Notes under the pieces: generated by a model
Told to the model about the DNA's origin: nothing
Database searches by the model: none
What the model saw: only the letters and a program-made list of their open reading frames with translations
NCBI GenBank assembly: GCA_043817485.1
Contig: JBDRGX010000125.1
Location: 1 to 14,223, forward strand
Source of the DNA: JBDRGX01 sp043817485 [NCBI: bacterium]
Lineage (GTDB): Bacteria > JBDRGX01
DNA length: 14,223 nucleotides
Reading direction: 5' to 3'
Position numbers and translations under genes: made by a program
In this document: piece after piece, positions 436 to 11,913 of the stretch
How the letters are laid out: every line of letters begins with the position of its first letter
How positions within the stretch are numbered: position 1 is the first letter of the stretch

Positions 436-1920
436 ATGCCAAATAAAAATGTTATTTTAATAACATCTGACCAATTTCGTTGGGATGTTCTTGGTTGTTG
501 TGGGAATAAAGCTATTAAGACTCCTAATTTTGATAAATTAGCAAAACAAGGAGTTATTTTTACAAATGCTATGAGTTCAAACCCTATTTGTGTTCCTGCA
601 AGAGCAACTATTACAACTGGAAATCATTCTCATAAATGTACTGGGTTTAAATCAAATAGTGGGAGAATTAAGGATGACCAGATAAAAATAGCAGAATATT
701 TCAATAAATTTGGTTATGAAACATATGCTATGGGGAAACTTCATTATGTGCCTTATTTAAAAAATCGTTTAGTACATGGTTTTAAAAACTGGTAAATGAC
801 AGAATCAGGAAGAATTTTATGGCAAGAGGAATTAACAGGTAAAGATTTAGGTGGAGAAGATTATCATTCTTACCTTAAAAAAGTGGGTTTTGAAAATATG
901 GCTCGAGCACATGGAATTGGTAATAATGATGTAAGAGCCACTATATCTCCTGTTCCATTTGAACATTATGTTGATGTATGGATAATGAACAGGTCTTTAT
1001 TTTATCTAAAAGAACATTTAAAAAGATATGCTAATAAACCATTCTTTATTTGGATATCTTTTCCAAAACCACATTCTCCTTATGACTCTCCAGAACCATA
1101 CCATAAAATGTATAATCCTAAAGAAATTCCAGAACCTTTTGGTAGTATAGATAAACTTGAAAATAGAAATCCAGAACTTAAATTAAGACCTAATAAATAT
1201 GGCTGGAATTTACTGTCAAAAGAAGCAATTCAATTATCTCGTGCTAGATACTATAGTTTAGTAAGTCTTCAGGATTATGTTATAGGAGAACTTCTTAAGT
1301 TTTTAAAAGAATATAATTTAAAAAATAATTCTTCTATACTTTTTACTGCTGACCATGGAGATATGTTAGGCGATTTTGATCTTTTTTTTAAAGGATTATT
1401 ACTTAATGGTTCTGTTCGTGTGCCTTTTATAATTTCTTCTCCTTTTTTGAAAAACAATGGAATTAAACTGGAGCATCTTGTAGGATTAGAAGATGTTTTA
1501 CCAACCCTTTGTGAATTAGGTGATATTCCTATTCCAGAAAATATTGAAGGTAAAAGTGTATTACCTACTATTATAGAATCTAAAAAGAATTTACGAGAAA
1601 TTTATATTTCTCAATGTCAGGAAGAGCCAAATCAATTATATATGGCATTTGATGGTAAGTTTAAATATTGTTATGCAGAATGGCATGGAATTGAAGAATT
1701 GTATGATTTAAAAAATGATCCTAATGAATTACATAATTTATCCAAAGATAAAAGATATAGAAACAAACTTTCAGATTTTAAAGATGCTGTTATAGAATGG
1801 TGTAAGAAAAATAATGATTATAAAATGTTAAATGAAAAAGGAAAACTTAAAATTTCGGATCCAAATTCAAATTTATTTATTAAAGAAACTGCAAAAGTAA
1901 TGGGTTGGCGTAAATATTAA
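436..1920 (+). pseudogene. Type I (formylglycine) sulfatase interrupted by an in-frame TAA
   Basis: Two fragments in the same frame, 119 aa (436-795) and 374 aa (796-1920), are separated only by TAA at 793-795. Read through, they give 494 residues, a normal sulfatase length. The first half has the N-terminal ILITSDQFRWD strand with metal-binding Asp12 and the activation motif C52-V-P-A-R with T58 and G62, where C52 would be converted to formylglycine. The second half has KPHSPYD, the ADHGD metal/catalytic segment, a Lys in FFKG and the YDLKNDPNELHNL C-terminal signature. Neither half alone holds a complete active site. No signal peptide is visible, so the intact enzyme would be cytoplasmic. 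A good SD (GAAGGAG, 422-428) precedes the first ATG. The second ATG at 796 directly follows the stop but has no SD. It could be a recent nonsense mutation (for example GAA to TAA), a sequencing error, or two chains made by reinitiation. Confidence 0.8.
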
Positions 1921-2022: not shown

Positions 2023-2727
2023 TTAAAGGAGTTTTTTATTTGATATTGAAATTGATTTGTAAGAAATTATTTTATCTTTAATCGCTTCTATTAAATTAAC
2101 TATATCCTTTTTATTTTTCACAGATGTTTTAAATATTTTAGCTTTTGGATTTATTTTTTCTATATTTTTCTCAACTTGCTTAATATTATATTTAAAATAT
2201 GGAAGTAAATCTGTTTTGGTTATTAAAACCATATCACTATTATAAAATATGGGTGGATATTTACTAACTTTATCATCACCTTCAGAAATAGAAGTTATGG
2301 AAATTCTTAAATTTTCCCCTAAATCAAATTCAGCTGGACAGACAAGATTTCCTATATTTTCAATAAACAATATATCTATATTGCTTTGTTTTAATGATTT
2401 AAAAGCTAATGAAATCATTCTGGAATTAAGATGACAAGCATTTCCAATATTGTCAGTATTTATCTGCACAACAGGAATTCCAATTTTTTTGATTCTACAA
2501 GCATCTTTATCAGTGGAAAGATCGCCTTCTATTACTGCTATTTTGAAAGTTTTTTTCATCAATTTTATAAGAGATTCAAGAATAGTTGTTTTTCCACAAC
2601 CAGGTGATCCCATTATATTTATAACAAAAATATTTTTATCTTTGAACAATTTTCTATTTTTTTTAGCATCTTTTTCATTTACTTCTAATATATTTTTTGA
2701 TAAAATAATTTTTTCCATTTGTATCAT
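2023..2727 (-). CDS. hypB: HypB, hydrogenase nickel-insertion GTPase
   Basis: HypB is a cytoplasmic GTPase that works with HypA to load nickel into the [NiFe]-hydrogenase large subunit. The 234-aa product has the P-loop GSPGCGKTT (residues 40-48), the EGD segment (67-69), the metal-site pair C98-H99, the ENIGNLVCP motif with C130 (third ligand of the G-domain metal site) and the TKTDLLPY guanine-specificity region. It lacks the N-terminal CxxCGC high-affinity nickel motif of E. coli HypB and has no histidine-rich stretch, so it is the short form. The start at 2727 is supported by an AAGGA site just upstream; the Met three codons later has none. It lies 43 bp downstream of hypA, so the two are probably cotranscribed. 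Confidence 0.95.
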   Translation of the reverse strand: MIQMEKIILSKNILEVNEKDAKKNRKLFKDKNIFVINIMGSPGCGKTTILESLIKLMKKTFKIAVIEGDLSTDKDACRIKKIGIPVVQINTDNIGNACHLNSRMISLAFKSLKQSNIDILFIENIGNLVCPAEFDLGENLRISITSISEGDDKVSKYPPIFYNSDMVLITKTDLLPYFKYNIKQVEKNIEKINPKAKIFKTSVKNKKDIVNLIEAIKDKIISYKSISISNKKLL

Positions 2728-2770: not shown

Positions 2771-3121
2771 TTAATTGTATTCTACACTATCTATAAGAAG
2801 TTCATTTCCACATAATAAATTCAAATTTGTACTTCCGCATTTTTTACACAAAAAGTGTATGTTAAAAGTATTATTAAAAGTTATATTATTTTTACATTCA
2901 TTGCATTTCATTTTAACAGGAATAATTTTTATTATTAATTTTGTATTTTCATACTTAGTTTTTTTTGATAAAATTTCAAACGCAAAATTTAAAGATTCAG
3001 GCATAATTGTTTTTAAAATTCCTATTTTTAAATTTATTTTTTTTATTTCAGATATTTTTTCTTTTTTACATTTTTTATTTAGTATATTTATTAAGCTTTT
3101 AACTATTGAAAATTCATGCAA
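2771..3121 (-). CDS. hypA: HypA, hydrogenase nickel-insertion metallochaperone (TTG start)
   Basis: HypA binds nickel at its N-terminus and passes it, with HypB, to the large-subunit precursor. The 116-aa product has the invariant MHE start, in which His2 is the essential nickel ligand, and the structural zinc site C73-x2-C76 / C92-x2-C95. It ends with the family's GNELLIDSVE strand. The start codon is TTG at 3119-3121: only this start yields Met-His-Glu, and a good SD (GGGAG, 3128-3132) lies 6 nt upstream. The gene begins 158 bp after the HypC-HydE fusion and is followed by hypB. It could be a continuation of the hydrogenase operon or a separate hypAB unit; I see no convincing terminator or promoter that decides this. 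Confidence 0.94.
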   Translation of the reverse strand: MHEFSIVKSLINILNKKCKKEKISEIKKINLKIGILKTIMPESLNFAFEILSKKTKYENTKLIIKIIPVKMKCNECKNNITFNNTFNIHFLCKKCGSTNLNLLCGNELLIDSVEYN

Positions 3122-3279: not shown

Positions 3280-4461
3280 TTAATTAATTCCTAAATCAGT
3301 TGGTGCTCTACCAATTGAATATAATAAATCAAGAACATATTTAATTCTTGTTTTTACATTTTCATTTGCACATACTCGTTCTGGATAAATTTCATAGAGT
3401 TCCTTGTATTTTTTGGGAGTTACGTTTATCATAAGAGAATTTGCTCCTGCCATTAATCCATTTTTTGCCCCATTATTTTTGTCTATAGTTTCCATAGCAG
3501 TGGTTACTACTATTTTACTTTCTGGATATAATATTCTTGTTCTTGCAATTGTATTTAAGCACTGTTCTATACTTGGAGTTTTTTCAATAGCAAGTGGAGT
3601 ATCTTTATGCGGAATAAATGGACCAAAAGAAAACATTTCTGTTTGAAGTTCTGCAGTAAGATGTATATCATTTATTATATTATCTTCTGTCTGATCAGGT
3701 AACCCAAATAAAAAACCAGTAAGTACAAGAAATCCCATTTTATTTAATTTTTTTATAATGTTTATTCTATTTTCTAATTTAAAACCAGGTTTTAATTTTT
3801 CATATAATTTTTTTTTGCTTGTTTCAAAACGCATAAGCACACCTCTTGCACCTTCATTATATATTTTTTCATATGTAGATATGTCTCTTTCTCCTATGCT
3901 TACAACAAGAAGCGTATTGCTTTTTACTCTTATTTTTTTTATTATATTAACAAGTATTTCATCTGTATACCAATCATCTTCTCCTGATTGTAATACAAGA
4001 GCTTTAAATCCTAATGCATTAACAGCGTAATTTGCAGCAAAAATAATTTCATCCACTGTCATTCTATATCTTTTTATATTTTTATTACTTTTTCTTATTC
4101 CACAATATAAACAATCATTTTTACAATAATTAGAAAATTCTATTATACCGTGAACACAACATGAATTTCCTGAATGCTGTTGTCTTACTGAATTTGCAAT
4201 TTGATACAATGTTTTTGGTTCTTGTGCAAGCCTTAAATCAGTTTCTTTTAACTTCAAAAAAATTTCTTTCCATGTTTTAAGTAATTCCAATGCCTTTTTT
4301 TCAGGCACTTTGCTTATAACAAAACCTCCTTGAGCATAAACATATTCACCAGAATTTACTTCAAAAAATTCATTTCTGGCTTTTCTTAATTCTCCAAAGT
4401 AATCAACAATAACAAATTTGCCATTTACTTCTTTTATTTTTCCTGGGATTGAATAGCACAT
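3280..4461 (-). CDS. hydE: HypC-HydE fusion: [NiFe] Fe-carrier domain joined to a radical SAM hydrogenase maturase
   Basis: One 393-aa chain joins two maturation proteins. Residues 1 to about 70 resemble HypC/HupF: the MCYSIPGKI start keeps the Cys2 that binds the Fe(CN)2CO precursor in HypC, followed by the beta-barrel segment SGEYVYAQGGFVISKV. The conserved HypC His in that segment is Gln44. From about residue 100 on it is HydE: IIEFSNYCKNDCLYCG carries the radical SAM cluster motif C113-x3-C117-x2-C120, followed by LQSGED, RFETSKKKLYEKLKP, GPFIPHKDTPL, TTAMET and the GANSLMINVTPKKYKELYEIYP C-terminal block. HydE finishes the mononuclear Fe-CO-CN unit made by HydG in [FeFe]-hydrogenase maturation. 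Fusion to HypC in a [NiFe] operon suggests it hands an iron-diatomic unit to the [NiFe] large subunit (inference). It starts 6 bp after the hydG stop with no visible SD, so it is probably translationally coupled. Confidence 0.9.
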   Translation of the reverse strand: MCYSIPGKIKEVNGKFVIVDYFGELRKARNEFFEVNSGEYVYAQGGFVISKVPEKKALELLKTWKEIFLKLKETDLRLAQEPKTLYQIANSVRQQHSGNSCCVHGIIEFSNYCKNDCLYCGIRKSNKNIKRYRMTVDEIIFAANYAVNALGFKALVLQSGEDDWYTDEILVNIIKKIRVKSNTLLVVSIGERDISTYEKIYNEGARGVLMRFETSKKKLYEKLKPGFKLENRINIIKKLNKMGFLVLTGFLFGLPDQTEDNIINDIHLTAELQTEMFSFGPFIPHKDTPLAIEKTPSIEQCLNTIARTRILYPESKIVVTTAMETIDKNNGAKNGLMAGANSLMINVTPKKYKELYEIYPERVCANENVKTRIKYVLDLLYSIGRAPTDLGIN

Positions 4462-4467
4462 GTTTTT

Positions 4468-5856
4468 TTAGATAGATATATCTTTAATGAATATATCTAT
4501 GCTTCCTTTTTTAATTTTTTTTAAGTATTTTTTTGTTTTATTTGCTATAATAGGATTATCTATTTTTTCAAGATAATAATTTATAATTTCATAACCCTTT
4601 TGGTACAATTTTGGAGATGCAAAATTTTCAAGATATTCAGCAAAAGTTAAAAGTCCATTAGGTCTGCAAAATTTATGAATTTCACCAGATTTGGAAAGTT
4701 TCATAAAATCCTTACCTATTCTACCTGTGCGATAACATGCAGTACAAAAGCTTGGAAGAAGTTTGTCGTTCAATACATCAAAAATAATTTCTTCTACTTT
4801 TCTTTTATCATTAATAACAAATTGAACTCTATCATCTTTTTTTCCATAACCATCTGTAACTGTTACTGAACCTGCTGATGTTTGAGAAATACCTATTTTA
4901 AAAGCTATTTTTCTTATGTTAGGAGTTTCTCTTGTACTTATAATAAGTCCAGTATAAGGTATGGCTAATCTTAAAATAGCAATAAGTTTTAAAAAATCTT
5001 GATCCGAAACAAGATATTTAGGTTTATATTTAACTGATGGAGCAGAACAAAATCTAGGAACAGATATAGTATGAGGTCCTATTTCACTGATTTTGTCCAT
5101 ATATTGAGCATGTGAAACAAGTCCAAGTATTTCAAATCTCCAGTCATAAAGTCCAAATAAAACTCCTAACCCTCTGTCATCAAGTCCTGCTTCTAAAGCT
5201 CTATTATGAGCTGTAATTTGCCTATTATAATCAGATTTTGGTCCTTTATGTAGTTTTTCGTATGTTTGGCGATGATAAGTTTCTTGAAATAATTGATAAG
5301 TTCCTATATTTGTCTTTTTCAATTTTTTGTAATTATCTACTGTAGTAGCGGCGATATTTACATTTATCCTTCTTATATTTCCTTTTTTTGTTTTTACTGA
5401 GTATATTGTATCAATAACTTGAACAACATAATCAATATCATTTACTTTTGGATCTTCTCCAAATTCAAGAAGTACTCTTTTATGCCCCATATTTATAAGT
5501 ATTTCCACTTGTTTTTTTACTTGCTCAATGGTGATTTTTTTTCTTTTCAATTCCATATTACTTATGTGGAAATTACAATATTCACAATCATTTACACAAA
5601 AATCAGAAACATAAAGCGGAGCAAAAAGCACTAATCTTTCACCATAAATTTCATTTTTTATTTTTGCTGCTACTTCAAAAAGTGCTTGTTCTAATTCCGG
5701 TATTTTTAAATTTACCAGATATCCAACATCTTTAAGATTTAATCCTTTTTTGTCTTTTGCTTTATTTAAAATATCATTTATAATTTCTTTTGAAGGATTT
5801 TCAGTTTTTTTTAATAACTCATTTATTTTTAATTCATCAATTATATTTTGATTCAT
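4468..5856 (-). CDS. hydG: HydG-type radical SAM tyrosine lyase (CO/CN- synthase)
   Basis: HydG cleaves tyrosine with SAM and assembles an Fe-CO-CN synthon on a second, iron-bearing cluster. The 462-aa product has the N-terminal radical SAM motif C87-x3-C91-x2-C94 (FCVNDCEYCNF) and the C-terminal auxiliary-cluster motif C371-x2-C374-x22-C397, which separates HydG from the thiamine enzyme ThiH. It also has QLFQETYHRQTYEKLH, LFGLYDWRFE and GPHTISVPR; His262 in the last is a candidate ligand of the labile 'dangler' iron. Length matches the family. It sits between the [NiFe] maturation protease (10 bp upstream) and the HypC-HydE fusion (6 bp downstream), not with HydF or an [FeFe]-hydrogenase. 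No SD precedes the ATG. This is not the hydrogenase gamma subunit, which is also called HydG in archaeal literature. Confidence 0.94.
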   Translation of the reverse strand: MNQNIIDELKINELLKKTENPSKEIINDILNKAKDKKGLNLKDVGYLVNLKIPELEQALFEVAAKIKNEIYGERLVLFAPLYVSDFCVNDCEYCNFHISNMELKRKKITIEQVKKQVEILINMGHKRVLLEFGEDPKVNDIDYVVQVIDTIYSVKTKKGNIRRINVNIAATTVDNYKKLKKTNIGTYQLFQETYHRQTYEKLHKGPKSDYNRQITAHNRALEAGLDDRGLGVLFGLYDWRFEILGLVSHAQYMDKISEIGPHTISVPRFCSAPSVKYKPKYLVSDQDFLKLIAILRLAIPYTGLIISTRETPNIRKIAFKIGISQTSAGSVTVTDGYGKKDDRVQFVINDKRKVEEIIFDVLNDKLLPSFCTACYRTGRIGKDFMKLSKSGEIHKFCRPNGLLTFAEYLENFASPKLYQKGYEIINYYLEKIDNPIIANKTKKYLKKIKKGSIDIFIKDISI

Positions 5857-5866
5857 ATATTTTTAT

Positions 5867-6331
5867 TTATTTTTTTTGAAAATTAGAAATAAGTAATTCT
5901 ACTTTTTTTACCATATTAGGAATTTTTTGTTTTATTAAGTTTGTTAAATTCAAACCAAATTCTGTATTAGACGGTTCAATCCCAACAACCATAATATTAT
6001 ACTCATGATTTATTTCAAAAGCAATTTTTAACGTTTCATGAAGAGCCAATCCGTGTGTTGTAACTCCAGAATCAGCATTTATAAAATTTACATTTTTGGG
6101 ATTAAATACCTTAATAGTTCCTGGTTTTTTATTCATTTTAACAGCATCTATAATTATAATAAATTCATAATCAAAATATTTGATAACATCAAGTCCTGAT
6201 ATATTTTTACATATAAATCTTACATTAGCAAATGTATTTTTTTTTTCAAGATATTCTACTACATGTATTCCAATAGCATCATCTTTTCTAAAAATATTTC
6301 CTACTCCAATAACAGATATGCCTTTTTTCAT
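5867..6331 (-). CDS. [NiFe]-hydrogenase maturation endopeptidase (HycI/HyaD/HoxM family)
   Basis: This protease removes the C-terminal tail of the large subunit once nickel is in place, locking the active site. The 154-aa product has the N-terminal GVGNIFRKDDAIG motif (canonical GxGN-x4-DDG-x-G, here with Ala in place of the first Gly) and the nickel-sensing positions Asp17, Asp62 and His93; the last two fall at exactly the numbering known for E. coli HybD. It starts 3 bp after the large-subunit stop and ends 10 bp before the HydG-type maturase, so it is certainly in the hydrogenase operon, and its substrate is presumably that large subunit. No SD is visible before its ATG, so translational coupling to the large subunit is likely. 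Confidence 0.94.
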   Translation of the reverse strand: MKKGISVIGVGNIFRKDDAIGIHVVEYLEKKNTFANVRFICKNISGLDVIKYFDYEFIIIIDAVKMNKKPGTIKVFNPKNVNFINADSGVTTHGLALHETLKIAFEINHEYNIMVVGIEPSNTEFGLNLTNLIKQKIPNMVKKVELLISNFQKK

Positions 6332-6334
6332 TTA

Positions 6335-7669
6335 TTAAACAAATTCAACATTAAGATAATGACATGAGCAAGAAATACACGGATCATAAGCTCTAATAAG
6401 CATTTCTGCTTGAATTGTTATTTCTTCTTTTGACTTATTTAAAATTTCTGGAATCATTTTTTTCAAATCCATATCGATATTTGCTAAATTTTGGTTTGTT
6501 GGAATTACACAATTTGCTTTTTCTATAAGTCCTTTGGTGTCTATTGTATAATCGTGGAATAAAATACCCCTTGGTACTTCTACTGCACCAACACCTTTTC
6601 CAGGTTTTATTTTAAATGTTTTTTGTTCTTCTATTGTTGGCCAACTTGATACTGCTTCATTTGCATTTATTCCATTTATAAGAAAATCTTCTATTATGGA
6701 AAGTGTGTCTCTTAAGCAATAAGCAGTTTCTACAACTTGAGCAATAGTATTCATAAATGGATTATAACATGGAGATTGTAATCCTAAAGAATCAGCTAAA
6801 TCAAGTTCTTTTTTTGAAAGTTTTTTATGATTAATATTAAACCTTGCTAAAGATCCTACCATATATGAATTTTTTTTATTTTTTGAATGTTTTGAAGTGG
6901 AATGTTCTACATAAAATTCATGAACAAAATTAAGATAATCTTTTGGATGGATTACTCCTTCTTCAGATGAAGCAATATTTCCATCAAGAAAAGCATATTC
7001 ATCAGAATGTGTTAATGCAATATATTCTGTTTTTCTTTCAAAAGATGGAAGTTTTAAAGTTTTAACAATTCCAATAACAGTATCTAAATCTTTTTCAAGA
7101 TTTAGAAGCAATTTTTTCATTTTTTCAAGTTCTTTTTTGGTTGGTATTTTTGTAAAACCTCTAACACATAAAGTAATAGGATGTGTATGTCTGCCTAATA
7201 ATAAATCACATAAATCACTACATATTTTTTTCATTTTCAAAGCAAGGATTACAATATCAGGATGAGTTTTAATAAGCGGAAATACACTTTCTACTCCAAG
7301 ACAATCAGGTGCAACAAGAAAAAGTACATGAAGTAAATGGCTGTCTAATGTTTCAAGATGCAATGCAACCTTTCTTAATTTTTTAGTTTGTTCAGTAGGA
7401 CTAAATCCTATGGCATCTTCTGTTGCTTTTATGGATGCAAGACTATGTCCTGTAGAGCAAATACCACATATTCTCGATGTAATATGTTGTACTTCAAACA
7501 TTGACCTGCCTTTTACCATCACTTCAAAAAATCTCGGAGCTTCTATTACATTTAGATGACATTCTTCAAGTTTGCCGTTTTTTATATTAATTTTAATGTT
7601 TCCATGTCCTTCAACTCTTGTAAGATATTCTACATTTATATTTAAATCTTTTTTAAGTTCCTGACTCAT
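6335..7669 (-). CDS. hydA: [NiFe]-hydrogenase large (alpha) subunit, group 3b type
   Basis: The catalytic subunit of a cytoplasmic bidirectional [NiFe]-hydrogenase. The 444-aa product has the L1 motif RICGIC (ligands C68 and C71) and the L2 motif DPCISCSCH (C431 and C434), so all four Ni/Fe cysteine ligands are present; VPRGILFHDYTI and NLANIDMDL are also typical. Processing after His437 would release only the seven residues YLNVEFV, a short tail. Cys436 between the last ligand and the cleavage site is an additional cysteine. I chose the ATG at 7669 because GGAGG lies 6 nt upstream; an in-frame ATG at 7702 would add 11 residues inside the small-subunit gene and has no SD. It overlaps the small-subunit gene by 17 bp. 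Subunit set and order match archaeal NADP-dependent sulfhydrogenase I. Confidence 0.95.
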   Translation of the reverse strand: MSQELKKDLNINVEYLTRVEGHGNIKINIKNGKLEECHLNVIEAPRFFEVMVKGRSMFEVQHITSRICGICSTGHSLASIKATEDAIGFSPTEQTKKLRKVALHLETLDSHLLHVLFLVAPDCLGVESVFPLIKTHPDIVILALKMKKICSDLCDLLLGRHTHPITLCVRGFTKIPTKKELEKMKKLLLNLEKDLDTVIGIVKTLKLPSFERKTEYIALTHSDEYAFLDGNIASSEEGVIHPKDYLNFVHEFYVEHSTSKHSKNKKNSYMVGSLARFNINHKKLSKKELDLADSLGLQSPCYNPFMNTIAQVVETAYCLRDTLSIIEDFLINGINANEAVSSWPTIEEQKTFKIKPGKGVGAVEVPRGILFHDYTIDTKGLIEKANCVIPTNQNLANIDMDLKKMIPEILNKSKEEITIQAEMLIRAYDPCISCSCHYLNVEFV

Positions 7670-8426
7670 TCTTTTCCTCCATCCACATTTTAACTCCTTC
7701 ATAAATATTGAATTTATCTTTAAGCATTTCTAATGTGAAACCATATTTTTTAAGTATATCTATTTGTCCTTGTTTATTATAATCTTCAAGTAGTCCTCTG
7801 CAATTATAGCATGTATTTCCATTAGACGGACACCATGCATCACATCCGGCTCTAGTTACAGGACCCATACAAACTTGACCTTTTTCAAATAAACATACAT
7901 TTTCTTTTAATTTGCATTCAACACAAACAGCATGAGTTGGAATTTTATATGGTACGCCTGTTAAAAGTCCTTTTAATACTAATGCAAATTCATTGTTATT
8001 TGTAGGACATCCATGTACATATGCATCTACTTTAACAACTTGGTCTACTGGTTTAATAGAGCCTGTTTCTATTTTATCTTTTCTTCCTGGATAAACAATT
8101 TCTAATGCATTTTCTATATTATGTTTTTTAATTATTCCATTAATTCCACCTGTACAAGCACATGCACCATAAGCTACAAGTATTTTTGCTTTATTTCTTA
8201 TATCTTTTATTCTTTCTTCATCATGTAGTCTTATTATGGCTCCTTCTATTATTGCAACATCATAATTTTCTGACCTTTCATGCATAACTTCTCTAAAATT
8301 TACTATGTCAATATGTTCAAGAATATCAAGAAGAGCAGTGTTTAAATAAGTTAATTGAAGTTGACAACCTTCACAATCTGAAAAATCAAAAAATGCAACT
8401 CTAACTTTTTTTTTTATTTCAATCAT
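7653..8426 (-). CDS. hydD: [NiFe]-hydrogenase small (delta) subunit
   Basis: The electron-transfer subunit that binds the large subunit and carries three iron-sulfur clusters. The 257-aa product has the proximal-cluster pattern DCEGCQ (C18, C21), GACACTGG (C89) and HGCPTN (C140). It is followed by a cysteine-rich C-terminal region with CVEC (C168, C171), C178, C186, C195, C199, C206 and C209, enough for two more [4Fe-4S] clusters. There is no twin-arginine signal, so the enzyme is cytoplasmic. The ATG overlaps the gamma-subunit TGA (ATGA) and has an AAGGAG site upstream. Its 3' end overlaps the large-subunit start. In group 3b enzymes it links the active site to the FAD- and Fe-S-containing gamma and beta subunits. 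Confidence 0.94.
   Translation of the reverse strand: MIEIKKKVRVAFFDFSDCEGCQLQLTYLNTALLDILEHIDIVNFREVMHERSENYDVAIIEGAIIRLHDEERIKDIRNKAKILVAYGACACTGGINGIIKKHNIENALEIVYPGRKDKIETGSIKPVDQVVKVDAYVHGCPTNNNEFALVLKGLLTGVPYKIPTHAVCVECKLKENVCLFEKGQVCMGPVTRAGCDAWCPSNGNTCYNCRGLLEDYNKQGQIDILKKYGFTLEMLKDKFNIYEGVKMWMEEKNESGT
7676..7680 (-). promoter_or_regulatory. Ribosome-binding site that sets the large-subunit start
   Basis: GGAGG, 6 nt upstream of the ATG at 7667-7669 and inside the 3' end of the small-subunit gene. It decides in favour of the shorter large subunit (444 aa) over the in-frame ATG at 7702. Confidence 0.75.
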
Positions 8427-9274
8427 ATTGCTCCTTCTATTTCTTTAATTTTATCGTAAGAAAATACCGGTCCATCTTGACAACAGTAATAATTATTTAT
8501 TTGACAATGTCCACATTTTCCAAGTCCACATTTCATATGTCTTTCAAGAGAAAGAAAAATTTGATTGTCTGGAATTTTTTTTTCCATAAGCTTAATAATT
8601 ACAAATTTATACATAATAGGTGGACCACATATTATACAATAAGTTTGTTTTATATCTATATCAACTTTGGGAATTAGTTCTGTAATTAATCCTATATTTC
8701 CTTTCCAATCAGGAGCAGTTTTATCAACTGTGCATTGAAAATGAATATCTGTGAGTTTTTCCCATTTTTCTATTTCATCAGTATATAAAAGCTGTTTTGG
8801 TTCTTTACAACCAAGGAGTATAACAACTTTACCAAAATCTTTTCTTTTATCTAACACAAAATTAATTAATGACCTTAACGGTGCTATTCCAAGTCCTCCA
8901 GCTATAAATAATAAATCTTTTCCCTTTAATTCATCAACAGGAAATCCATGTCCAAATGGACCTCTTATTCCTATTTTATCTCCTTCTTTTAAGGTATGTA
9001 AAACTGATGTAAAATTACCTGCTTTTCTTACACAAATCTCAAAAAATCCCTTTTGAGTAGGAGAGGAAGAAATAGAGATAGGAGCTTCTCCAACTCCAAA
9101 TATGGATATTTCAGCAAATTGTCCAGGGGAATGTTCAAGGTTTTTGTTCTCTTCTAATTCAATTTTAAACCATTTTTCCATAGCAGTCATTTGTTTTATA
9201 TCAGTAATGATTCCTATTTTTGGAATATAAAGAGATTCCATATTTTTGTATTTTTCTGTTATTATATTATTCAT
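8423..9274 (-). CDS. hydG: Hydrogenase gamma subunit, FAD/NAD(P)-binding with [2Fe-2S] (not the HydG maturase)
   Basis: A ferredoxin-NADP reductase-like flavoprotein that exchanges electrons between NAD(P)(H) and the hydrogenase Fe-S chain. The 283-aa product has the FAD-binding segment APISISSSP (64-72), the phosphate-binding GPFGHGFP loop, the nucleotide-binding FIAGGLGIAPLRSL (123-136) and the CGPP motif near 216. A C-terminal [2Fe-2S] motif follows with C249, C254, C257 and C264 or C265. Organisation matches the sulfhydrogenase gamma subunit and dihydroorotate dehydrogenase electron-transfer (PyrK-like) proteins; the surrounding beta, delta and alpha genes select the former. It overlaps the beta stop and the delta start by 4 bp each (ATGA junctions) and has an AAAGGA site. 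NAD versus NADP preference cannot be read here. Symbol follows the Pyrococcus hydBGDA naming, which clashes with the maturase at 4468-5856. Confidence 0.9.
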   Translation of the reverse strand: MNNIITEKYKNMESLYIPKIGIITDIKQMTAMEKWFKIELEENKNLEHSPGQFAEISIFGVGEAPISISSSPTQKGFFEICVRKAGNFTSVLHTLKEGDKIGIRGPFGHGFPVDELKGKDLLFIAGGLGIAPLRSLINFVLDKRKDFGKVVILLGCKEPKQLLYTDEIEKWEKLTDIHFQCTVDKTAPDWKGNIGLITELIPKVDIDIKQTYCIICGPPIMYKFVIIKLMEKKIPDNQIFLSLERHMKCGLGKCGHCQINNYYCCQDGPVFSYDKIKEIEGAI

Positions 9275-10302
9275 ATATTTTCCTTTGCTAAAGAGTTAAT
9301 AGTTTCATATAAATTAATTTTTGCCATACAAGCTCTTGTACAACGTCCACAACCTACACAAAAATTTCTATTATATTTTTCAACACAATATAAAAATTTT
9401 CTGAAAAATCTATGTTGTTGTCGACTTTTTCTTTCTTCTCTGAAATTTTCACCACCAGCAACTTCAGCAAAATTTTTCAATTGACATGAATCCCATGTTC
9501 TGTATCTTTTTCCTTCTTTTAAATTTAATTCAATGTCATCTTTTACATCAAAACAATAACAAGTTGGACATACATTTGTACAATTACCACAGGATACACA
9601 TTTTTTTCCGATTTCATCCCATAATGTATTTTTTTTTGTTTTACTTAATATTTTTCCTATTTCATCATGATTTGGGATAAGATTTTTTTTCCATTTTTCA
9701 TCTTTTTCCTGTCTATTTTTACTTAATTTATATTCAATGTCTGAAATATCTTTAAAAACAAATTTATAATTGTTAACAAGATTTTCGCCTTCAGGCGAAT
9801 TAATCTGAATAGCATATTCTTCCCCAATATCAGTAAGCATAAGGTCATATCCACCCTTTGGATTATTGGTTCCCATAGTAATGCAGGTTGCATGTTCATC
9901 ACATGGTTCAAGACATTCAATGCCTATTATTATAATATTTTTTTTTCTTTTAAAAAAAGTTTTATCAATAGGATTTACTCCACATGCATTATCAAGACAT
10001 AATATTCCTGCAATATCACATGTATGAGCACCGAAAATAATTAAAGGAGTTTGATCTATATTCGATGTTTCTGCTTTTATATTTTCAATTTTAAAAGAAA
10101 ATAAAGTTTCTTCTTGTGGAAGATAATATTTTTTCAAAGAAAGAATTGGAGGTTTGTGAAGAAGAATAAGTTCTTCAGGCGAATCAAGAAAATTTATTAC
10201 ATATTGATTTTCTTTTCTTGTTGGACCTGCTATTCTGTACTTGTTTTTTAGAGATTCAAACAAATTTTTTATTTTTTGTTTTTCTATAGTATAGTATTTC
10301 AT
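9271..10302 (-). CDS. hydB: Hydrogenase beta subunit, 4Fe-4S dicluster protein (sulfhydrogenase beta / AsrA type)
   Basis: An iron-sulfur subunit that wires the flavoprotein to the hydrogenase and, in sulfhydrogenases, is linked to sulfur or polysulfide reduction. From the ATG at 10302 the product is 343 aa. The N-terminal two thirds carry the family's GAHTCDIAGI and GIECLEPCDEHATC cysteine segments. The C-terminal part has two ferredoxin-type motifs: C235-x2-C238-x2-C241-x3-C245-P and C315-x2-C318-x2-C321-x3-C325. It also resembles subunit A of anaerobic sulfite reductase, but the neighbouring delta and alpha subunits identify it as hydrogenase. A GTG at 10308 two codons earlier is possible; I prefer the ATG. 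Three AAGGTG repeats lie upstream. It follows the FNT gene by 27 bp and overlaps the gamma gene by 4 bp. Confidence 0.92.
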   Translation of the reverse strand: MKYYTIEKQKIKNLFESLKNKYRIAGPTRKENQYVINFLDSPEELILLHKPPILSLKKYYLPQEETLFSFKIENIKAETSNIDQTPLIIFGAHTCDIAGILCLDNACGVNPIDKTFFKRKKNIIIIGIECLEPCDEHATCITMGTNNPKGGYDLMLTDIGEEYAIQINSPEGENLVNNYKFVFKDISDIEYKLSKNRQEKDEKWKKNLIPNHDEIGKILSKTKKNTLWDEIGKKCVSCGNCTNVCPTCYCFDVKDDIELNLKEGKRYRTWDSCQLKNFAEVAGGENFREERKSRQQHRFFRKFLYCVEKYNRNFCVGCGRCTRACMAKINLYETINSLAKENI

Positions 10303-10305
10303 AAA

Positions 10306-10325
10306 CACCTTTCACCTTTCACCTT
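10306..10325 (-). repeat. Tandem 7-bp repeat of SD-like sequence upstream of the beta subunit
   Basis: On the coding strand the unit GGTGAAA recurs so that AAGGTG appears three times within 20 bp, ending 3 nt before the ATG at 10302 and overlapping the alternative GTG at 10308. Each copy resembles an AAGGAG ribosome-binding site. The middle copy has the best spacing to the ATG. It may raise ribosome loading or allow copy-number slippage; it may also be incidental. Confidence 0.6.
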
Positions 10326-11286: not shown

Positions 11287-11913
11287 TTATTTTACTACTG
11301 AAAAATAACGAAGTGCTTTAATTTCAATTGTTAAATCTACATTTCGTAATGTAATTTCTTTAGGAACATTTAAAACTACAGGTGCAAAATTTAAAATACT
11401 AAAAACACCAGATTCAATTAATTTATCTGCAATCATTTGAGCATTATCATATGAAACAGCGATAATTCCAATATGAATATTATTTTTTTTAACACTTTCT
11501 TTAATATTACTTATATCTTCTACTATAATATTTCCACATAATTTTCCAATTTTATTTTTATCTTGATCAAATGCAGCTACGAATTTCAAACCTTCTTGTT
11601 CAAATCCTTTATAATTTAAAAGAGCAGATCCTAAATTACCTACACCTACAATAGCAAGATTACACATTTTTTTTGCATTAATAATATCTAACAAGTATTT
11701 TTTTAAATTTAATACATTGTATCCTTTTCCTGGTTGTCCAAATTTCCCAAAATTAGCTAAATCTTTTCTAATTTGAAAAGCATTAATATTTGTTATTTCA
11801 GCAAGTTCTTCAGATGAAATATTTATTTTTTCTTGTTCAATTTGTTGAACAATTCTTAAATATTGTAAAATTCTTGGAATAACTATTTCAGAAATTTTTT
11901 TCTCTTCTAACAT
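11287..11913 (-). CDS. rex: Rex, NADH-sensing transcriptional repressor
   Basis: Rex binds DNA when NAD+ dominates and releases it when NADH rises, controlling fermentation and hydrogen genes. The 208-aa product has the N-terminal winged-helix domain with ISSEELAEITNINAFQIRKDLANFGKFGQPGKGYNV (residues about 32-66, recognition helix included; motif quoted in parts: QIRKDLANFGKFG, then QPGKGYNV), a Rossmann domain with GVGNLGSA (90-97) and the acidic FDQD end of strand 2 (115-118) that favours NAD(H) over NADP(H). Length is normal. The ATG at 11913 has an AAGGA site. Its own promoter carries one GTGATA-type operator and the next gene has two, suggesting autorepression and control of the FNT-hydrogenase unit. 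Confidence 0.95.
   Translation of the reverse strand: MLEEKKISEIVIPRILQYLRIVQQIEQEKINISSEELAEITNINAFQIRKDLANFGKFGQPGKGYNVLNLKKYLLDIINAKKMCNLAIVGVGNLGSALLNYKGFEQEGLKFVAAFDQDKNKIGKLCGNIIVEDISNIKESVKKNNIHIGIIAVSYDNAQMIADKLIESGVFSILNFAPVVLNVPKEITLRNVDLTIEIKALRYFSVVK

Follow-up and report, generated by a model that had tools for sequence, protein, structure and literature searches.

Why should HydG and HydE, which are maturation proteins of [FeFe] hydrogenases, be encoded inside a [NiFe]-hydrogenase operon, when the [NiFe] and [FeFe] maturation systems are treated as separate? The window, that is, the whole stretch of 14,223 nucleotides analysed here, contains the following features in this region.

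9271 to 10308, minus strand: 4Fe-4S electron-transfer subunit (PF17179)
8423 to 9274, minus strand: FAD/NAD(P) diaphorase subunit of the hydrogenase (PF00175, PF10418, PF00970)
7653 to 8426, minus strand: [NiFe] hydrogenase small subunit (PF01058)
6335 to 7702, minus strand: [NiFe] hydrogenase large subunit (PF00374; RICGIC and DPCISC ligand motifs, C-terminal tail beyond CSCH)
5867 to 6331, minus strand: [NiFe] large-subunit maturation protease, HycI family (PF01750; TIGR00072 above the cut-off)
4468 to 5856, minus strand: HydG, 462 residues (TIGR03955; matches to 4wcx and 4rtb)
3280 to 4461, minus strand: HypC-HydE fusion protein, 393 residues (PF01455 at residues 1-64, PF04055 at 107-267, PF06968 at 282-360; TIGR03956)
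4270 to 4461, minus strand: HypC domain of the fusion, residues 1-64, N-terminus MCYSIP (Cys2 codon at 4456-4458)
3280 to 4224, minus strand: HydE radical-SAM barrel of the fusion, residues 80-393 (CxxxCxxC at residues 113-120)
4150 to 4158, minus strand: Cys102-x-His104, specific to the fusion and just ahead of the radical-SAM motif (residue comparison)
2771 to 3121, minus strand: HypA, nickel metallochaperone, TTG start (PF01155; TIGR00100 88.0 bits, cut-off 88.1)
2023 to 2727, minus strand: HypB, nickel-insertion GTPase (TIGR00073 249.7 bits, above the cut-off)

The order of transcription is small subunit, large subunit, protease, HydG and HydE (the fusion), with hypA and hypB downstream. 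The gaps are 3 bp between the large subunit and the protease, 10 bp between the protease and HydG, and 6 bp between HydG and HydE, followed by 158 bp to hypA. Coordinates and profiles therefore agree with the initial annotation, which had placed HydG and HydE on one strand behind the large subunit and its protease with a spacing of 3-10 bp. The hydrogenase is of the group-3b [NiFe] type. The sulfhydrogenase alpha models score best for its large subunit, yet remain below their cut-offs, and the cysteine ligands of the Ni-Fe site are intact. The Pfam scan of 16 open reading frames in the window, Rex included, gave no match to the [FeFe]-hydrogenase or HydF families, as had been stated from the first reading of the letters. 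The Rfam scan gave nothing at the gathering threshold, and a promoter scan gave 75 matches, near the 69.7 expected from shuffling.

HydG was described at the outset as a true HydG, and this is borne out: it scores 517.9 bits with NCBIfam TIGR03955 (cut-off 312.15), and both cysteine motifs, C87-x3-C91-x2-C94 and C371-x2-C374-x22-C397, are present in the translation. Its best match among solved structures is 4wcx (481 bits, query residues 5-456). In an alignment of 10 fusion-linked and 12 classical HydG, the radical-SAM cysteines, the cysteines of the C-terminal cluster and His262 are kept. By its family, this protein is likely to be a tyrosine lyase yielding CO and CN-.

The assignment of the following gene as HydE was correct in part. 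The protein exceeds the TIGR03956 cut-off (278 against 254.6 bits) and has the HydE fold; however, it is not a plain HydE but a fusion of HypC and HydE, which had been overlooked. PF01455 (HupF_HypC) matches residues 1-64 with 47.2 bits (cut-off 28.5), solved HypC chains match residues 1-68, and the N-terminus MCYSIP has the M-C-x-x-I/L-P pattern; its 34.1 bits with the HypC subfamily model TIGR00074 stay below the cut-off of 48. Cys2 and Pro6 are invariant across 14 aligned fusions. The AlphaFold2 model (pLDDT 95.6, pTM 0.93) superposes on HydE 3iiz with a Z score of 42.8 and an rmsd of 1.9 over 311 aligned residues, residues 1-76 being barely covered by the fold search. Identity as PylB (146.3 bits, cut-off 348.2) or HmdB (84.3 bits, cut-off 320.9), members of the same radical-SAM subfamily, was rejected; both scores are far below the cut-offs. 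Because a HypC domain is fused to HydE, this HydE is tied directly to [NiFe] maturation.

The fusion recurs in MAGs named for many phyla and in one archaeon. The order large subunit, protease, fusion, HydG is seen in loci L280, L282, L283, L284 (where the contig ends within HydG), L289 and L291. Since the same arrangement recurs in other genomes, it is not due to chance. No relative was found in viral contigs. Among 15 plasmid records with HydE or radical-SAM matches, the HypC part was in none of the eight listed, whose matches start at query residue 41 at the earliest.

The HydE domains of the fusions also differ from ordinary HydE in the residues of the pocket. In the tree, 32 fusions lie on one side of a 100/100 branch and 37 HydE-only sequences on the other. 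The radical-SAM cysteines and many barrel residues are kept. In T. maritima numbering, R155 is Arg in 37/37 HydE-only sequences and Gly or Ala in 32/32 fusions, T134 is Thr in 36/37 and Phe, Tyr, Val or Ile in 32/32, and R54 is Arg in 37/37 and replaced in all 32. The window counterparts of R54, R155 and T134 are His104, Gly207 and Val186. R155 and T134 are the residues that we take to hold the substrate carboxylate in HydE. Conversely, Cys102 and His104 (window numbering) are present in every one of the 32 fusions and in none of the 37 HydE-only sequences.

The genome check proposed initially was run on relatives of the window that encode the fusion, mostly MAGs with no completeness given. 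Fifteen of them were profiled for HypD, HypF, HypE, HydF, HydA, the large subunit and HydG, and 23 more for HypD. The outcome favoured the proposal: HypD was found by the profile search in 0/38 (0/15, 0/3 and 0/20), HypF, HypE and HydF exceeded their cut-offs in none of the 15, and [FeFe] HydA was found in one (G015, a holder of [FeFe] hydrogenases), whereas the [NiFe] large subunit was found in 14. Several candidates were rejected. Those for HypF were short, separate sub-domain matches, each covering one part only of the 741-position profile; those for HydF covered the GTPase part only, up to position 182 of 392. HypE needs a C-terminal Cys, and the HypE candidates from three Margulisbacteria-like genomes (88-103 bits, below the cut-off) all lack it.

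We consider it likely that this cluster encodes a HypDEF-independent route, in which an iron-CO-CN unit made by HydG is delivered by the fusion to the [NiFe] large subunit. HydG would cleave tyrosine and assemble the unit at its auxiliary cluster. The fusion's HydE domain would receive it from HydG, like ordinary HydE but with a rebuilt pocket, and would present the iron to the fused HypC instead of dimerising it for HydF. Cys2 of HypC might then carry the unit to the apo-large subunit, as HypC supposedly does in the standard route, and Cys102 may give a second thiolate, the counterpart of Cys41 of HypD in HypCD. HypA and HypB would add nickel, after which the protease would close the site. 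At some point one CO would have to be exchanged for CN- to reach the standard ligand set. The route is based on the gene content, the fusion, its single grouping, the changed residues, the absence of HypD, HypE, HypF and HydF from the relatives and the intact ligands; from these we infer the reaction itself, the passage of the unit to Cys2 and the CO-for-CN- exchange. The initial suggestion that tyrosine-derived CO, and possibly CN-, may serve the [NiFe] site is in this respect supported by comparative genomics. A broader claim, that this is a fourth kind of hydrogenase maturation, the other three being HypABCDEF, HydEFG and the [Fe]-hydrogenase route, with all diatomic ligands from tyrosine and with HypC-HydE radical chemistry, perhaps using Cys2 and Cys102 thiolates, in place of HypD, HypE and HypF, is one toward which we lean slightly.

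It should be mentioned that cleaving two tyrosines yields two CO and two CN-, and the standard [NiFe] site has one CO and two CN-. The HydG ligand ratio does not fit this site without exchange, which counts against the route. The fallback offered earlier, that HypE and HypF still supply cyanide, is unlikely in the fusion lineages, because HypD was not found in these genomes and HypF and HypE did not exceed their cut-offs. Alternatively, the route might be real and its product non-standard, the fusion delivering Fe(CO)2(CN) or another ratio to give a different [NiFe] ligand set. The HydG product is Fe(Cys)(CO)2(CN) in the accessible text of PMC11736057, and no HypE or HypF above the cut-off is there to add cyanide. 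However, the large subunits fall in known families and have retained the usual Cys ligands, and no sequence feature demands a changed site; we regard this alternative as unlikely, though worth keeping in mind.

HydG might also be dispensable, the fusion obtaining its iron-ligand unit elsewhere and HydG being an extra in some lineages. HydG was detected in 10/15 fusion genomes and not in G006, G008, G010, G014 and G015, four of which belong to two CPR subclades in the tree of fusions and HydE. On the other hand, HydG directly adjoins the fusion in 7/15 loci and in 7/20 further stretches, the fusion-linked HydG cluster together (one ordinary HydG is nested within), and G003 and G005, close relatives of G006, do have HydG. 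These observations make a dispensable HydG rather improbable.

It is very unlikely that HypD, HypE and HypF are present and were missed, in which case the fusion would only strengthen the standard route or add CO to it. Most of the genomes are MAGs with no completeness given, and outside the fusion genomes some HypD matches are incomplete or sit at the end of a contig; nevertheless, the profile that gave 0/38 here did exceed its cut-off in genomes belonging to the same phyla (13/379 and 6/74) and in 4/14 controls. Moreover, one fusion genome, G452 (about 1.7 Mb), is nearly a single contig, with the fusion on a contig of 1.67 Mb, and HypD was not found in it. That HydG and the fusion, as relatives of known [FeFe] maturases, ended up in this operon by chance and work for an [FeFe] hydrogenase encoded at another locus, such as the HydA of G015, is scarcely credible in view of the HydA and HydF counts, the HypC fusion, the repeated [NiFe] neighbourhood and the changed pocket.

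The proposed HypDEF-independent route shares features with both known systems. With HydEFG it has in common the fold, the radical-SAM motif, the full C-terminal cluster motif of HydG and, likely, tyrosine-derived CO and CN- on iron; it differs in the fused HypC, the replacement of R54, T134 and R155, the clustering with [NiFe] genes and the near absence of HydF and HydA. With HypC/HybG/HupF and HypCDEF it shares a HypC domain with Cys2, HypA, HypB, the protease and a standard large subunit; it differs in lacking detectable HypD, HypE and HypF and in the covalent joining of HypC to a radical-SAM enzyme. Passages of PMC11565642 propose HypC alone as a carrier of Fe(CN)2CO through Cys2, and in those available from PMC11736057 the HydG product passes directly to HydE. 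HypX, which makes CO specifically for the [NiFe] site in aerobic organisms (PMC6802093, accessible portion), is comparable as a dedicated CO enzyme; its CO comes from formyl-tetrahydrofolate according to the accessible part of PMC11565642, in contrast to the tyrosine cleavage proposed here. The nearest hint in print is Mvol_1348 of Methanococcus voltae, a HydE/HydG-like radical-SAM protein near an ORF called HypD, with a suggested role in its cofactor biosynthesis (PMC9431491). The likeness is by description only; HypD is present there, and the available text describes no HypC fusion or HydG pair.

In the open literature, with preprints and most subscription papers outside its scope, no description of a HypC-HydE fusion in [NiFe] maturation was found, and none of the papers naming HydE and HypC, including PMC9431491 and PMC9431212, is titled on such a fusion. 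Within this scope, the result points to a so far undescribed HypC-HydE/HydG route for the iron-CO-cyanide site. If true, it would supply [NiFe] hydrogenases with CO under anaerobic conditions, and the accessible text of PMC11565642 treats the CO source under anoxic conditions as open. The cluster offers a concrete enzyme set for tyrosine-derived ligand supply, and the fused protein, a single group, links two hydrogenase maturation systems. It is predicted that several uncultured lineages build [NiFe] hydrogenases without HypDEF.

Among 59 Patescibacteria-like genomes with a large subunit, 40 have neither HypD nor the fusion, and the association between the fusion and HypD in such genomes is not significant (Fisher, p = 0.33). 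Therefore, a genome that lacks HypD is not by itself proof that the fusion has this role, and a further HypD-less route may exist.

The [NiFe] hydrogenase operon on the minus strand of the window has the order 4Fe-4S subunit, diaphorase, small subunit, large subunit, protease, HydG, HydE, hypA and hypB, with gaps of 3 bp (large subunit/protease), 10 bp (protease/HydG) and 6 bp (HydG/HydE). The presence of HydG and HydE in this operon, noticed in the initial annotation, is confirmed and is stronger than was stated. From the subunit set and the best-matching models (sulfhydrogenase alpha, scores below their cut-offs), the hydrogenase seems to be of group 3b.

Genes of the window
436-1920, plus strand: sulfatase gene with a single in-frame TAA at 793-795 and a PF00884 match in both halves
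3280-4461, minus strand: HypC-HydE fusion protein, 393 aa
4468-5856, minus strand: HydG, 462 aa
10330-11214, minus strand: formate/nitrite transporter, upstream of the hydrogenase genes
11287-11913, minus strand: Rex-like regulator, upstream of the hydrogenase genes

The hydrogenase genes in the contig stretches L277, L279, L282 and L291 are likewise preceded by a Rex-like gene, an arrangement that may point to redox regulation of the operon.

The gene first read as plain HydE begins with a complete HypC domain, which had been overlooked. PF01455 covers residues 1-64 (47.2 bits) and solved HypC chains match residues 1-68; the stricter HypC model TIGR00074 was not reached (34.1 vs 48). The AlphaFold2 chain, from an alignment of 49 sequences, was confident (pLDDT 95.6, pTM 0.93). 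In a fold search, residues 80-393 matched T. maritima HydE (Z 42.8, 40% identity), and complex-B-bound HydE structures were among the top rows. The HypC part was barely tested by this search, so that its assignment rests on sequence.

HydG is genuine, with a model score of 517.9 against a cut-off of 312.15 bits, two cysteine motifs and solved relatives. The catalytic and C-terminal cluster residues of fusion-linked HydG agree with those of classical HydG (10 vs 12 rows; the truncated L157 was omitted). In a tree of 33 rows, the 21 labelled fusion-linked cluster together with one ordinary HydG nested within (L026:6265-7689, a Pseudothermotoga record), and the remaining 11 classical rows are separate. 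The nested HydG and the [NiFe]-linked HydG may share an origin. It should be mentioned that one of the 21, L232, comes from G041; the HydE of this genome is only a fragment that lacks the HypC part, and G041 was left out of the fusion-genome count.

A genome-contig scan gave 234 related loci; of the best 80, 15 have the fusion (L001-L013, L016 and L028, with L001 and L016 truncated at contig ends). The record titles name Planctomycetota, Endomicrobia, Margulisiibacteriota, an archaeon, Nitrospirae and several CPR groups; three read just "bacterium". When searched with a profile built from 14 fusions (the window and 13 loci), 7 of 379 Patescibacteria-like genomes (the phylum of G012) and 23 of 74 Margulisbacteria-like genomes (the phylum of G003) proved to hold a full-length fusion, both phylum labels being readings of record titles. 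For a tree, 33 of the 39 known fusions, including that of the window, were used and 32 passed the filter. A 100/100 branch placed these on one side and 37 HydE-only rows on the other (33 of 65 classical rows, every second one, and four of five from the phylum of G003). Two Patescibacteria-like genomes have a separate gene for HypC immediately upstream of the fusion (L218:3292-3522, for which Pfam was run, and L221:7601-7831).

The genome search for hypD, hypE, hypF, hydF and [FeFe] hydA suggested in the initial annotation was run in the 15 fusion relatives. HypD was found in none, and HypE, HypF and HydF over their cut-offs in none; HydA was absent from 14 and present in one. HypD was also missing from 3 further Patescibacteria-like and 20 further Margulisbacteria-like fusion genomes (0/38 in total), the other families having been checked in the first 15 only. 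In the 74-genome set, the fusion is in 23, HypD in six and both in none; five of the six HypD genomes have ordinary HydE. In G452, a genome of about 1.7 Mb, the fusion sits on a 1.67-Mb contig.

The [NiFe] large subunit occurs in 14 of the 15 genomes, and both CxxC ligand motifs are present in all 14 as well as in the genomes G038, G144 and G145. Of the 20 stretches that surround the additional Margulisbacteria-like fusions, 11 hold a large subunit with both motifs, L287 holds the C-terminal motif alone, at the stretch end, and no large subunit was seen in the other 8. HydG is in nine of these stretches and adjoins the fusion in seven, as it does in 7 of the 15 first-set loci.

Residues were compared between 16 fusions and 65 HydE-only proteins, and again between 32 and 37. 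The radical-SAM cysteines, Q107, R159, E161, R180, M224, M291 and Y306 are kept in the fusions, the last two in 31/31 with letters at those positions. Cys102 and His104 of the fusion are present in 32/32 fusions and 0/37 HydE-only proteins, which have Y/H/F and R, respectively. R155 (T. maritima numbering) is G or A in all 32 fusions and R in 37/37 HydE-only proteins; at position 134, all 32 fusions have F, Y, V or I, and 36/37 HydE-only proteins have T. R155 and T134 presumably hold the carboxylate of free cysteine in HydE, and their loss would fit a switch from free cysteine to protein thiolates. Cys2 was found in 30/30 fusions with letters there; since the 16 later-added rows were assigned to the fusions by a motif containing Cys2, the fair count is the 14 profile proteins.

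It is most likely that the iron unit of the [NiFe] site is made via HydG and HypC-HydE, without HypD, HypE and HypF. In the standard system, iron is bound by Cys2 of HypC and Cys41 of HypD, and delivery by HypC alone has been proposed (PMC11565642). In the [FeFe] route, the HydG product [Fe(Cys)(CO)2(CN)]- is passed to HydE (PMC11736057). The same handover could supply the fused HydE, where Cys102 might substitute for HypD Cys41. Two tyrosines give two CO and two CN-, whereas the standard [NiFe] site has one CO and two CN-. This means that one CO would be swapped for CN-, or that the site is unusual. No description of this route was found in the open-access literature searched; the nearest printed hint is a HydE/HydG-like protein near HypD in Methanococcus voltae (PMC9431491).

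Some results go against a simple form of this picture. HydG was found in 10 of the 15 fusion genomes (partial in G007) and not in five, four of which belong to two CPR subclades of the fusion/HydE tree; HydG might therefore be lost or missed there, or the ligands might have a different source. Of 59 Patescibacteria-like genomes that encode a large subunit, 7 carry the fusion, 12 carry HypD and 40 carry neither (Fisher, fusion vs HypD, p = 0.33). In 20 inspected of these 40, all large subunits hold both cysteine motifs. HypD-less maturation thus extends beyond the fusion system, and absence of HypD is insufficient evidence for the fusion route.

A DUF6390 profile matched close to the hydrogenase in 9 of the 20 inspected stretches without HypD or fusion; its own seeds account for six of these matches.

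Seed proteins of the DUF6390 profile
L197:1502-2239
L201:2701-3423 (Pfam run)
L208:9852-10583
L211:6973-7716 (Pfam run)
L213:6782-7582
L214:9989-10708

The profile had no match in 55 stretches that were counted as fusion-bearing (three of them are from G041 and G074, without a full fusion, and many genomes contribute several) or in 18 HypD loci, mostly short. The DUF6390-bearing loci possibly represent a further HypD-less route. The L211 protein has a weak HypC-like C-terminal match below the cut-off (E 1.6e-4), and an EamA-type transporter often accompanies these loci (Pfam run on L201 only).

In the fusion genome G015, [FeFe] hydrogenases share a contig with the [NiFe] large subunit, and neither HydG nor HydF was detected. 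Its [FeFe] genes encode a group-A6-like hydrogenase (L126:829-2568) and a short [FeFe]-like protein (L127:1432-2310).
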